Shown piece after piece: positions 20,082 through 23,747 of a stretch of 64,000 bases of DNA. The DNA comes from Buchnera aphidicola str. Bp (Baizongia pistaciae) (GTDB lineage: Bacteria; Pseudomonadota; Gammaproteobacteria; Enterobacterales; Enterobacteriaceae). The stretch spans positions 62,001 to 126,000 of the forward strand of contig NC_004545.1 in the NCBI RefSeq assembly GCF_000007725.1, given 5' to 3'. The position numbers and the translations under genes were made by a program. The notes beneath the pieces were generated by a model. The model was not told where the DNA came from and did no database searches. It saw only the letters and a list, made by a program, of their open reading frames with translations. Each line of letters opens with the position of its first letter. Position 1 is the stretch's first letter.

Positions 20082-21077
20082 ATGCAAAGTGATGTTATTT
20101 CTAGAGTTAAAAAAATTTATATTAAAAATAAAATAGATATATCTTCAAAGATTTTTCCATATTATCAGACAACAGATTATTATTTGACTTATCATAATAT
20201 GAAAGATCGTTTAGAAAATATGCATGAATGTTTTTTAAAACAATTTACTAAACATATTTCGGAATATTCAGATGTTGATTGTAAAATTTCTTTTTATAAA
20301 TTTATAATTCAAAAATTTAAAAATATAAAAAAAAATATAAAGAATAATTCTATTTCAGATTGCTTTGAAATTAGTCCATATAAGAAATTAGGAATAATAT
20401 TTGTTTCTGATAATATTTCAGATTATTTAATAGAATATTTATTTGGGGGATGTGAATTAAAAAATAGTTCAAATGGTTTATTTAAAAAGTTAACTTTATC
20501 TACGATTAACATTGTTAAAAAAATGTTTAAAATAATTTTAGAACAGTATTATTTTTTATGGAACAAAGTATCATTATGTAAAATGAAGCTTATTTTAAAT
20601 CGTTTACAAAATTTAAATGAAATATCTAATGTTAATTTTATAAATAGTAAAGATACGTTTGTAACTTTTTTGTTTCGTTTAAGAATAGCAAATAAGTTTG
20701 GAATGTTAGGAATATGTTTACCAACTTCATTGTCTTTTCAATGTAATAATGAAGCTGATGTAAATAGTGTTCATAATGTTAGTCATATTAGTTATGATAA
20801 TGTTGTTAATACTGAAATAAGAAAACGATTATTTCAAGTGATTGTTTATAATTGTAAAATAGTGTTAAAAATTGTATTAATAGAAAATTATATTACTCTT
20901 TCAAAAATTATAGCATTTAAAGTGGGTGATATATTACCTATTCATATGTTAGATAATGTTGTTGCATATTCTGAAAATGTACCAATTTTGATTGGAAAAT
21001 ATAAAATGTTTAAAAATAAATATGTATTTTGTGTTGTAGATTATTATAATTCAACTTTAAATTATAAAAATGGATAA
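20082..21077 (+). CDS. fliM: Flagellar motor switch protein FliM
   Basis: The product is 331 aa (E. coli 334). It is the C-ring component between FliG and FliN. Partial matches to the family are the central CheC-like domain (YLIEYLFGGCELKNSS; LSTINIVKKMFKIILEQYYFLW) and the C-terminal SpoA domain (ILPIHMLDNVVAYSENVPILIGKYKMFKNKY). The N-terminal CheY-P-binding motif LSQxEIDALL is not evident, in line with a genome without obvious chemotaxis here. Its end overlaps fliN by 8 nt. Confidence 0.92.
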   Translation: MQSDVISRVKKIYIKNKIDISSKIFPYYQTTDYYLTYHNMKDRLENMHECFLKQFTKHISEYSDVDCKISFYKFIIQKFKNIKKNIKNNSISDCFEISPYKKLGIIFVSDNISDYLIEYLFGGCELKNSSNGLFKKLTLSTINIVKKMFKIILEQYYFLWNKVSLCKMKLILNRLQNLNEISNVNFINSKDTFVTFLFRLRIANKFGMLGICLPTSLSFQCNNEADVNSVHNVSHISYDNVVNTEIRKRLFQVIVYNCKIVLKIVLIENYITLSKIIAFKVGDILPIHMLDNVVAYSENVPILIGKYKMFKNKYVFCVVDYYNSTLNYKNG

Positions 21078-21474
21078 TATATTAGTGAATAATAAAAATA
21101 AAAACTTATTAGATTTAAATAAAGAAGATATAAAAAAATCTTGTGAAATCGAAGATAAAATTTTTCATAGCAAAACAGTTAATGATGTTGATTTGAATCT
21201 AAATTCTAAGAATGATATTTCATCTAAAATGAAATTTATAATGGATGTTCCAGTTCATCTTACAATTGAAGTAGGAACAGTTAAAATAACTATAAAAGAC
21301 TTATTAGAACTGCGTTCTAAATCAATATTAGTATTAGATAAGCATGCGGGAGATCCTTTAAACATATTGGTTAATGGTTATGTTATTGCTACAGGAGAGC
21401 TAGTAGTTACGGAAAATAAATATGGTATTAGAATTATCAATATTATTGATAATTCTGTATTTAAAAAGCTTTAA
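21070..21474 (+). CDS. fliN: Flagellar motor switch protein FliN
   Basis: The product is 134 aa (E. coli 137). The SpoA domain fills residues 55-134: MDVPVHLTIEVGTVKITIKD, LELRSKSILVLDKHAGDPLNI and GELVVTENKYGIRI, all strongly family-like. FliN forms the bottom of the C ring and docks FliH-FliI for export. It is much better conserved than FliM, fitting an export role. The N-terminal 50 residues are variable. It starts inside the fliM 3' end. Confidence 0.96.
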   Translation: MDNILVNNKNKNLLDLNKEDIKKSCEIEDKIFHSKTVNDVDLNLNSKNDISSKMKFIMDVPVHLTIEVGTVKITIKDLLELRSKSILVLDKHAGDPLNILVNGYVIATGELVVTENKYGIRIINIIDNSVFKKL

Positions 21475-21535: not shown

Positions 21536-22618
21536 ATGTTGATCGATATTATGTTTGAAAAAATAGGAATATCATTATTTGAGTTAGTGACATCAATTAT
21601 ATTTATTAGTTGGATAGTGAAAAAGTTTATTTTAGATAAGAATGTTATAATTCAATCGTATATGAAAGTAGAGTCTAAAATTTCTTTAGGATATAATGAA
21701 AAAATTATTATTGTTGATATTAAAGATGTTAGATTAGTTTTAGGTGTTACTTCAAAAAGAATTGTGCATTTATATACATTACCTCCAATTGTTTATAAAA
21801 AAAGTCAAGATTCTCTAATTAAATCTTCTAATGTTGGCTATAAGCGAAATAATTACATTAGAACTATGTGGAATAAAACAATGGTATATCAAATTGCTTC
21901 ATTATGCGTATTTTTATTATTTTGTCCTTCTTATGCATATGCAGGTATTCCAGATGTGATTAGTCATACATCATCAGATGGTGGGCAAATTTGGTCCATT
22001 CCAATTCAAACGTTAGTTTTTATTACATCATTAACGTTTATCCCAACTGTTTTATTAATGATGACTAGTTTTTCTCGCATAGTTATTGTGTTTAGTTTGT
22101 TACGTAGTGCCTTAGGAACGCCATATTCTCCTCCTAATCAAATTTTAGTGGGTTTGTCTTTAATACTAACTTTTTTTATTATGGCGCCTATTTTTGATAA
22201 AATTTATCAAGATTCTTATTTACCCTTTAGCGAAGATAAAATTTCTATAGATACAGCAATTGTGAGGGGGGCTAAACCTCTTCATAAGTTTATGGTTAAT
22301 CAAACTCGTCAAGTAGATTTAGAGTTTTTTTCAAAATTAGCTAATATTTCTACTTTTTCTCGGAAGGAAGAGATTCCAATGAGAGTTTTATTGCCGTCAT
22401 TTATTACTAGTGAATTAAAGACAGCTTTTCAGATTGGTTTTACTATATTTATACCATTTTTAATCATAGATTTGGTAGTTTCTAGTGTACTTATGTCATT
22501 GGGAATGATGATGGTTCCTCCTTCTACTATATCGTTGCCTTTTAAATTAATGTTATTTGTGTTGGTTGATGGTTGGCAATTGTTGATTACGTCTTTAACT
22601 CATAGTTTTTATCATTAA
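21536..22618 (+). CDS. fliP: FliO-FliP fusion, flagellar export gate protein
   Basis: The product is 360 aa; E. coli FliP is 245. Residues 1-95 resemble FliO: a transmembrane helix (about 10-30), then [20 protein letters not shown] and [15 protein letters not shown], the FliO cytoplasmic signature. Residues 111-136 look like the FliP signal peptide ([20 protein letters not shown], then PSYAYA before Gly137). Residues 137-360 give 224 aa of mature FliP, exactly the E. coli mature length, with [31 protein letters not shown] and [17 protein letters not shown]-type motifs. In E. coli fliO and fliP are separate adjacent genes. Possible internal starts for FliP are the ATGs at 21866 and 21881. FliP forms the export gate pore with FliQ and FliR. 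Confidence 0.93.
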
Positions 22619-22701: not shown

Positions 22702-22974
22702 ATGACTATTGAATCTGTAATGAGTTTATTTTATGATGCTATGAAAGTAACGTTAATGATTTCTTTACCCTTATTATTGTCAGCGTTATGTTGTGGTTTA
22801 ATTGTAAGTATTTTTCAAGCTGCCACTCAAATAAACGAACAGACGTTATCTTTTATTCCTAAAATAGCTGCAGTATTAGTATCTATTGTTATTTTTGGTC
22901 CATGGATGTTAGTTATATTATCAGATTATACACATACTTTATTTTATAATTTGTCTTATATTACTTATTCATAA
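22702..22974 (+). CDS. fliQ: Flagellar export gate protein FliQ
   Basis: The product is 90 aa (E. coli 89). It is a two-helix membrane protein of the export gate. The sequence MTIESVMSLFYDAMKVTLM and GLIVSIFQAATQINEQTLSF, then PKIAAVLV, matches the family closely, including the loop QAATQINEQTL. Its stop codon overlaps the fliR start by one base (TAATG), which implies translational coupling. Confidence 0.97.
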   Translation: MTIESVMSLFYDAMKVTLMISLPLLLSALCCGLIVSIFQAATQINEQTLSFIPKIAAVLVSIVIFGPWMLVILSDYTHTLFYNLSYITYS

Positions 22975-23747
22975 TGTTCCAGTTTAATTTTAATGATTTT
23001 ATATTATTTATTTATAATTTATTTTTTCCAGCTGTACGTATTCTTGCGTTATTTTCTACGGCACCGTTATTTAATAGTAAATTTATTGAAAAAAAAATTA
23101 AACTGATAATGGCTTTTGTTATTAGTTGGATTTTTTCTTCTTTTTTACCAAAGGTAAATATAGCTATATTTTCTGTTGACGGAATTTTAATTATTATCGA
23201 ACAAATGTTAATTGGTATATTATTAGGATTAACCATGCAATTGATATTTTCTTCTATTTTTATGTCTGGAGAAATAATTAGTTTACAAATGGGTTTATCA
23301 TTTTCTTCATTGTTTGATTTTAATAGCCGTTCTAATTTGTCTGCTTTGTCACATTTTGTTCATATTTTTTTATTATTATTATTTTTAGAATGGAATGGTC
23401 ATATTTGGATGTTGTCTGCTTTATTTGACACTTTTATTACTATACCTATTCAAAAAATATATTTAGATCCTAATATTTTTTTAAAGGTAGTAAATTTTTC
23501 TAAATATATTTTTTTTGACAGTATAATGTTATTATTCCCAATTATTATTGTTCAATTATTATTGAATTTATCTATTGGAATTTTGAATCGTGTAGCTCCT
23601 CAAATTTCTATTTTATCTTTAGGATTTACTGTTACTTTATTAGTTGGAATAATTTTGTTATATTTTTTTATTCCAATTTTTCCTTCATCTTGTATTGTAA
23701 TTTTTCGTCGTTTACAGAGTTTTGTATTAACTTTGTTTAATAGTTAA
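22974..23747 (+). CDS. fliR: Flagellar export gate protein FliR
   Basis: The product is 257 aa (E. coli 261), highly hydrophobic with about six membrane segments. It completes the FliP5-Q4-R1 pore. Family-like blocks are FFPAVRILALFSTAPLFNSK, EQMLIGILLGLTMQLIFSSI and GEIISLQMGLSFSSLFD, and NRVAPQISILSLGF near residue 205. It is the last gene of the plus-strand flagellar operon. fliR in E. coli also ends the fliLMNOPQR operon. Confidence 0.96.
   Translation: MFQFNFNDFILFIYNLFFPAVRILALFSTAPLFNSKFIEKKIKLIMAFVISWIFSSFLPKVNIAIFSVDGILIIIEQMLIGILLGLTMQLIFSSIFMSGEIISLQMGLSFSSLFDFNSRSNLSALSHFVHIFLLLLFLEWNGHIWMLSALFDTFITIPIQKIYLDPNIFLKVVNFSKYIFFDSIMLLFPIIIVQLLLNLSIGILNRVAPQISILSLGFTVTLLVGIILLYFFIPIFPSSCIVIFRRLQSFVLTLFNS

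Follow-up and report, generated by a model that had tools for sequence, protein, structure and literature searches.

A FliO–FliP fusion with an internal signal peptide in Buchnera aphidicola Bp, of apparently independent origin and consistent with a precursor separated by signal peptidase I

How is FliP made from a reading frame that begins with FliO, and did such a frame arise only once? The question is raised by the window, the whole 64,000-nucleotide stretch of Buchnera aphidicola Bp DNA analysed here, in which one stop-free frame of 360 codons plus a stop runs from 21536 to 22618 on the + strand. The first-pass annotation, made from the letters alone, had proposed that this single frame holds a FliO-like module followed by a complete FliP, and both parts are recovered above the profile cut-offs. 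Pfam FliO (PF04347) matches residues 26–83 of the whole protein (E 1.8e-9, 38 bits against a cut-off of 22) and NCBIfam FliO (TIGR03500) residues 16–82 (57.6 bits, cut-off 55.25). The FliP part is matched by Pfam PF00813 over residues 163–354 (E 4.4e-77) and by NCBIfam TIGR01103 over residues 162–358, along positions 1–197 of a 197-position profile (283 bits, equivalog cut-off 217.45). Residues 1–110 match PF04347 at E 1.9e-10 and TIGR03500 at 60.8 bits when taken alone. No second FliO match is found at E ≤ 0.001 in the Bp genome (618,379 bases; chromosome 615,980). The frame therefore encodes a FliO domain, a linker, an intact FliP signal peptide and a mature FliP of 224 residues, and the original observation is confirmed. 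A structure prediction of low confidence (mean pLDDT 57, pTM 0.39) places a helix at residues 2–33 and four strands at 44–82, followed by the linker and a signal-peptide helix. The main features of the locus are as follows.

21070–21474, + strand: fliN, the upstream neighbour of the fusion ORF (NCBIfam)
21536–22618, + strand: FliO–FliP fusion ORF, 360 amino acids (frame; Pfam and NCBIfam matches)
21563–21619, + strand: FliO transmembrane helix, residues 10–28, expected N-out and C-in (hydropathy; topology by homology with Salmonella FliO as described in PMC2947984)
21581–21781, + strand: core of the FliO domain, residues 16–82 (TIGR03500 match)
21788–21874, + strand: linker, residues 85–113, with borders set by hand
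21944–22615, + strand: mature FliP, 224 amino acids (Pfam match; alignment)
22702–22974, + strand: fliQ, the downstream neighbour of the fusion ORF (Pfam)
22974–23747, + strand: fliR, after fliQ (Pfam)

At 20082–21077 lies fliM, which scores 73.3 bits against a TIGR01397 cut-off of 219.6 and is a strongly diverged FliM.

Salmonella FliP is reported to be cut between residues 21 and 22 (PMC2947984), and the FliP signal peptide is described as cleaved (PMC5542437). When the fusion is aligned to the Salmonella-type FliP chain 6f2d, residues 122–137 are aligned, with A136 on A21 and G137 on Q22, and a cut at this site leaves 224 residues in both proteins, the mature length given in the first-pass annotation. 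The Bp site reads AYA followed by G; hydropathy and motif reading place a hydrophobic stretch at residues 120–138, with two K/R among the 12 residues before it. With small residues at -3 and -1, a hydrophobic core and a basic n-region, the segment fits a predicted signal peptidase I substrate. The enzyme is encoded in the Bp genome (PF10502, E 2.3e-55, at G000:C1:276026-276733). The claim of a preserved internal signal peptide thus stands, as does the topological argument that FliO ends in the cytoplasm, where a signal peptide must begin. Features in and just before this segment are listed below.

21797–21803, + strand: linker A7 tract, where slippage by one base would bring FliO to a stop at TAA 21816–21818 or 21820–21822
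21870–21872, + strand: Shine–Dalgarno-like GGA lying 8 nt upstream of the ancestral fliP start and shared with several relatives (motif reading only)
21881–21883, + strand: ancestral fliP ATG (residue 116), still in frame, as aligned with 10 genomes of the same genus
21881–21943, + strand: FliP signal peptide, residues 116–136, with c-region SYAYA (alignment, motif, hydropathy)
21935–21943, + strand: AYA (-3 to -1); signal peptidase I is predicted to cut after A136, at the homologue of the Salmonella 21/22 site

We compared the fliO/fliP boundary, as the first-pass annotation had suggested, in 93 relatives with small genomes (94 rows, as one genome is spread over two contigs), and called a genome fused when one open frame covers both FliO and FliP. 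Groups g1, g11 and g97 were sampled in full, with the other groups represented through an even sampling of the family; the groups include possible non-Buchnera genomes, and g125 is the first to branch in the tree. FliO and FliP are fused in 39 of the 93: 33 of 36 in g97, three of four in g83, two of four in g115 and one of 11 in g1, the group of Bp, in which Bp stands alone. None is fused among the 15 genomes of g11, a count that leaves out a 16th genome with no match, or among the 23 of the remaining groups. In-frame stops number zero in the 1315 linker codons of the 39 fused genomes and 122/1276 and 153/1276 in the other frames, but the in-frame figure is circular because fused was defined as stop-free. 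Plasmids place some members: that of G431 is 100% identical to the plasmid of Buchnera of Aphis helianthi and that of G139 to the plasmid of Buchnera of Formosaphis micheliae, and G437 adjoins, by its plasmid, Buchnera of Acyrthosiphon and Macrosiphum.

FliO is undetected in two of the ten unfused g1 genomes, G005 and G002. Four of the ten same-genus relatives of Bp have the two genes in different frames, with a 4-nt overlap between the fliO stop and the fliP ATG. Split pairs that lie in the same frame are separated by one stop in four g11 genomes and one g83 genome (G307), and by more than one stop in G003, G001, G450, G257 and G275. At the g11 loci L123, L125, L126 and L216 a single TGA parts the in-frame fliO and fliP, with the fliP ATG 6 nt past the stop. 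The linker of one fused locus (L212, in G121) contains an in-frame tandem repeat of DQNVQIK.

A quick tree was built from mature FliP, FliQ and FliR (94 rows including four outgroups, with G384, G175 and G399 left out). Bp is sister to the unfused G006 with an SH-aLRT of 99 and falls within g1 at 100; long branches lie elsewhere, chiefly in g83. Forcing Bp to group with g97, the clade linked to Buchnera APS, lowers the log-likelihood by 154.5 units (p-AU 3.5e-48, for a grouping specified once the quick tree was known), and the joint clade expected of a shared fusion origin is rejected. Because Bp is also the only fused genome among the 11 of its clade, its fusion looks independent. Over the whole tree the fusion appears to have arisen several times: parsimony requires nine changes, six gains and three losses at equal cost or four and five when gains cost double. 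An ancestral fusion for all these symbionts was considered and rejected, since parsimony prefers gains with losses unless gains cost at least three times as much as losses; a fused root ties at three times and wins at five.

The fused lineages share what a processed precursor would be expected to keep. In all 39 fused proteins the residue at -3 is A, V or I, and that at -1 is A (37), S (1) or G (1). Within the 33 fused g97 proteins -1 is always A and -3 is V (28), A (4) or I (1), with Y (16), R (13), H (2), Q (1) or N (1) at -2; fixation at -1 and restriction at -3, with -2 free among five residues, is the pattern of a live cleavage site. Across 15 disjoint g97 pairs dN/dS is 0.26 for FliO, 0.66 for the linker, 0.22 for the signal peptide and 0.08 for mature FliP, indicating that the signal peptide evolves under constraint and the linker under much less. 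Many of the split relatives still carry the cleavage motif, by descent. Read by eye, the split g11 FliP proteins have lost it in 11 of 15 cases (L123–L128, L130, L131 and L215–L217) and kept it in three, one being unreadable; these losses are probably a single inherited event, and such proteins may stay anchored by their signal peptide.

Of the 39 fused genomes, 12 lack the ancestral fliP ATG, namely seven of the 33 in g97, where the losses take at least four changes on the tree, all three in g83 and both in g115. Other possible start codons occur in ten of these 12: an in-frame ATG in G322 (-37), G373 (-32) and G139 (-15), a TTG at -23 in five genomes, and a TTG in G107 (-15) and G121 (-11). 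The remaining two, G431 and G231, have no ATG, GTG or TTG between -38 and -11, and FliP therefore seems reachable there only through the fusion. The ancestral ATG is kept in 26 of the 33 fused g97 genomes, so that internal initiation also fits in these, and in all three split g97 genomes.

The best reading, in which we have moderate confidence, is a FliO–FliP precursor separated by signal peptidase I. The like layout of eight other proteobacterial loci, described below, speaks for it, and the extra in-frame ATGs of G322, G373 and G139 weaken it somewhat. It builds on the single frame, the two domains, the preserved cleavage motif, the internal start lost in other lineages and the signal peptidase I gene. 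Translated as one chain, FliO would insert with its N terminus facing outward, so that the beta-domain lies in the cytoplasm, and the linker would present the positively charged n-region of the FliP signal peptide on the cytoplasmic side while the h-region crosses the membrane. Signal peptidase I would then cut after A136, giving mature FliP a normal periplasmic N terminus and leaving FliO with the linker and a signal-peptide stub as a second membrane anchor. FliO has been proposed as a scaffold for FliP assembly that is not part of the final gate (PMC5542437); made adjacent to FliP and then separated from it, FliO could scaffold the FliP ring and yet be absent from the finished gate. Some Bp FliP may also start directly at ATG 21881. 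The first-pass annotation had allowed either a signal peptidase cut or a translational restart. The cut is favoured for the fused lineages generally by the motif present throughout and the ancestral start lost in 12 of them, and a restart remains compatible with Bp.

Evidence for a working precursor is weakest in Bp itself, and the case rests on the other lineages. Of the two restart codons named earlier, ATG 21866 has no counterpart in the same-genus relatives and is rejected as the ancestral one, and ATG 21881 is the ancestral fliP start because it aligns with the fliP ATG of those relatives. This start survives in Bp together with the upstream GGA, and the fusion therefore need not be the source of FliP there. 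Chance alone would leave the 31 codons between the end of the FliO domain and ATG 21881 free of stops in 3.5% of shuffled and 4.1% of Markov draws, so their openness in Bp alone is not strong evidence of selection. Bp has 138 bases between the FliO motif and the fliP ATG, one more than the 137 of G007, G008 and G009. Pairwise alignment of Bp with its sister G006 shows a 7-base difference at the fliO end under three settings; loss of the fliO stop relative to G006 was considered as the fusion event and set aside, as the 138 and 137 spacings leave the polarity of the indel unsettled.

Accordingly, the fusion in Bp may have arisen recently, may be incidental, or may even reflect a miscounted base. 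A frameshift at the fliO end could have joined it to fliP while FliP continues to be produced from ATG 21881, through internal initiation or coupling, the fused chain being minor or neutral; the start and GGA retained as in the relatives, the ten unfused genomes of the eleven in g1, the one-base spacing difference and the chance openness of the linker would all suit this account. We consider it unlikely, though worth serious attention, because other fused lineages lasted after losing the ancestral start and the FliO part of Bp still scores above the FliO cut-offs. A miscounted base in the A7 tract, or RNA polymerase slippage there, would leave the two genes separate or mixed in the cell; one base more or fewer does bring FliO to a nearby TAA, and Bp is the sole fused genome of its clade, but seven A's make a short tract, and we regard this explanation as improbable. 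Least credible, and very improbable, is an uncut chain that tethers FliO domains to the FliP ring at 1:1, the fixed stoichiometry that the first-pass annotation had raised: it follows from the fusion alone and FliO does complex with FliP (PMC5542437), yet the cleavage motif is kept in 39 of 39 fused proteins with -2 free in g97, signal peptidase I is present, and the same paper places FliO outside the final gate.

The fusion may also bear on the fate of fliO. In a PF04347 check of 23 genomes, 16 without a credible BLAST FliO and seven with one, the domain is present in seven of seven and absent from the 16, although a strongly diverged copy could be missed. The 16 comprise 3/3 drawn genomes of g144, 3/3 of g116, 5/5 of g76 and 1/1 of g178, together with G005, G002, G072 and G069, and none is fused. 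In g144, g116, g76 and g178, FliP is kept in 12 of the 12 drawn genomes in which FliO is undetected. FliO therefore seems, from these gene contents, to have decayed repeatedly in genomes that encode it separately. We tentatively suggest, as a possibility rather than a favoured conclusion, that FliO–FliP fusions are a recurrent membrane polyprotein whose internal signal peptide is the processing site, and that once the internal start is gone FliO would be locked to FliP and could not be lost, in contrast to its repeated decay elsewhere. Fusion may in this way protect an otherwise dispensable gene from loss during genome reduction. Because FliO is proposed to be a scaffold absent from the gate, joint making and separation of the pair would bear on how the export gate is built, and natural fusions, some without an internal start, offer tests of whether a mid-chain signal peptide is cut in bacteria and whether co-synthesis of FliO suffices for the gate.

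Similar frames occur outside these symbionts. A search beyond the small-genome set gave 123 further loci, ten of them second g1 copies, and in the 40 of the 123 with the longest frame upstream of FliP a FliO motif was recognised by eye in eight, all of which pass Pfam FliO and FliP. They come from Oligella ureolytica, three Advenella species, two Alcaligenaceae MAGs, a Castellaniella MAG and a Proteobacteria MAG. In all eight, a pattern script picked out [A/V]xA before Q where the cleavage site is expected, and an in-frame ATG lies at -18 to -21 in four and not in the other four. These eight give no frequency, because 80 related loci had been selected for their resemblance to the fused query. 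Of 369 genomes drawn evenly from the class, 187 had a profile match, and among the matches listed nine begin in the first 10 profile positions, of which only Bp has no internal stop; this search gives no fusion count, since a fusion whose FliO part had diverged would be recognised by its FliP part alone.

The kind of fusion is already known, as a fliO–fliP fusion in Buchnera sp. APS is in print, attributed to Shigenobu et al. 2000 in PMC2947984. What is new is the apparently independent fusion in Bp and the apparent recurrence in and outside Buchnera. In the excerpts available from PMC2947984, PMC13063649, PMC12403147, PMC8109811, PMC3246468 and PMC5542437 there is no treatment of its processing or recurrence, and literature listings on internal signal peptides with signal peptidase I, on signal peptidase in polytopic proteins, on gene fusions of Buchnera and on fliOP added nothing to this. 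FliP is reported as enriched in basal bodies of pea aphid Buchnera and given as 43 kDa in a figure legend, in a paper whose main text, as available, does not mention FliO (PMC8109811); this mass fits the length of the fusion.

The fusion in Buchnera APS joins the same two genes as that in Bp. One g97 member has a plasmid 85–86% identical to the plasmids of APS and its relatives, which would tie that largely fused clade to APS, but the Bp fusion appears to have a separate origin and Bp keeps the ancestral fliP start that is gone in seven of the 33 fused g97 genomes. To our knowledge, the FliR–FlhB fusion has no internal signal peptide. That fusion also unites export-gate proteins, although a different pair (PMC13063649; reference list of PMC2947984). 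Salmonella and other Enterobacteriaceae have FliO and FliP with the same domains and a homologous cut position, but from separate genes. The ORFs of Oligella, Advenella, Castellaniella and the other MAGs resemble Bp in their order of FliO, a variable linker, a preserved signal peptide, which in them has [A/V]xA before Q, and FliP; they differ in belonging to other Proteobacteria, mostly Alcaligenaceae, and in their longer linkers.
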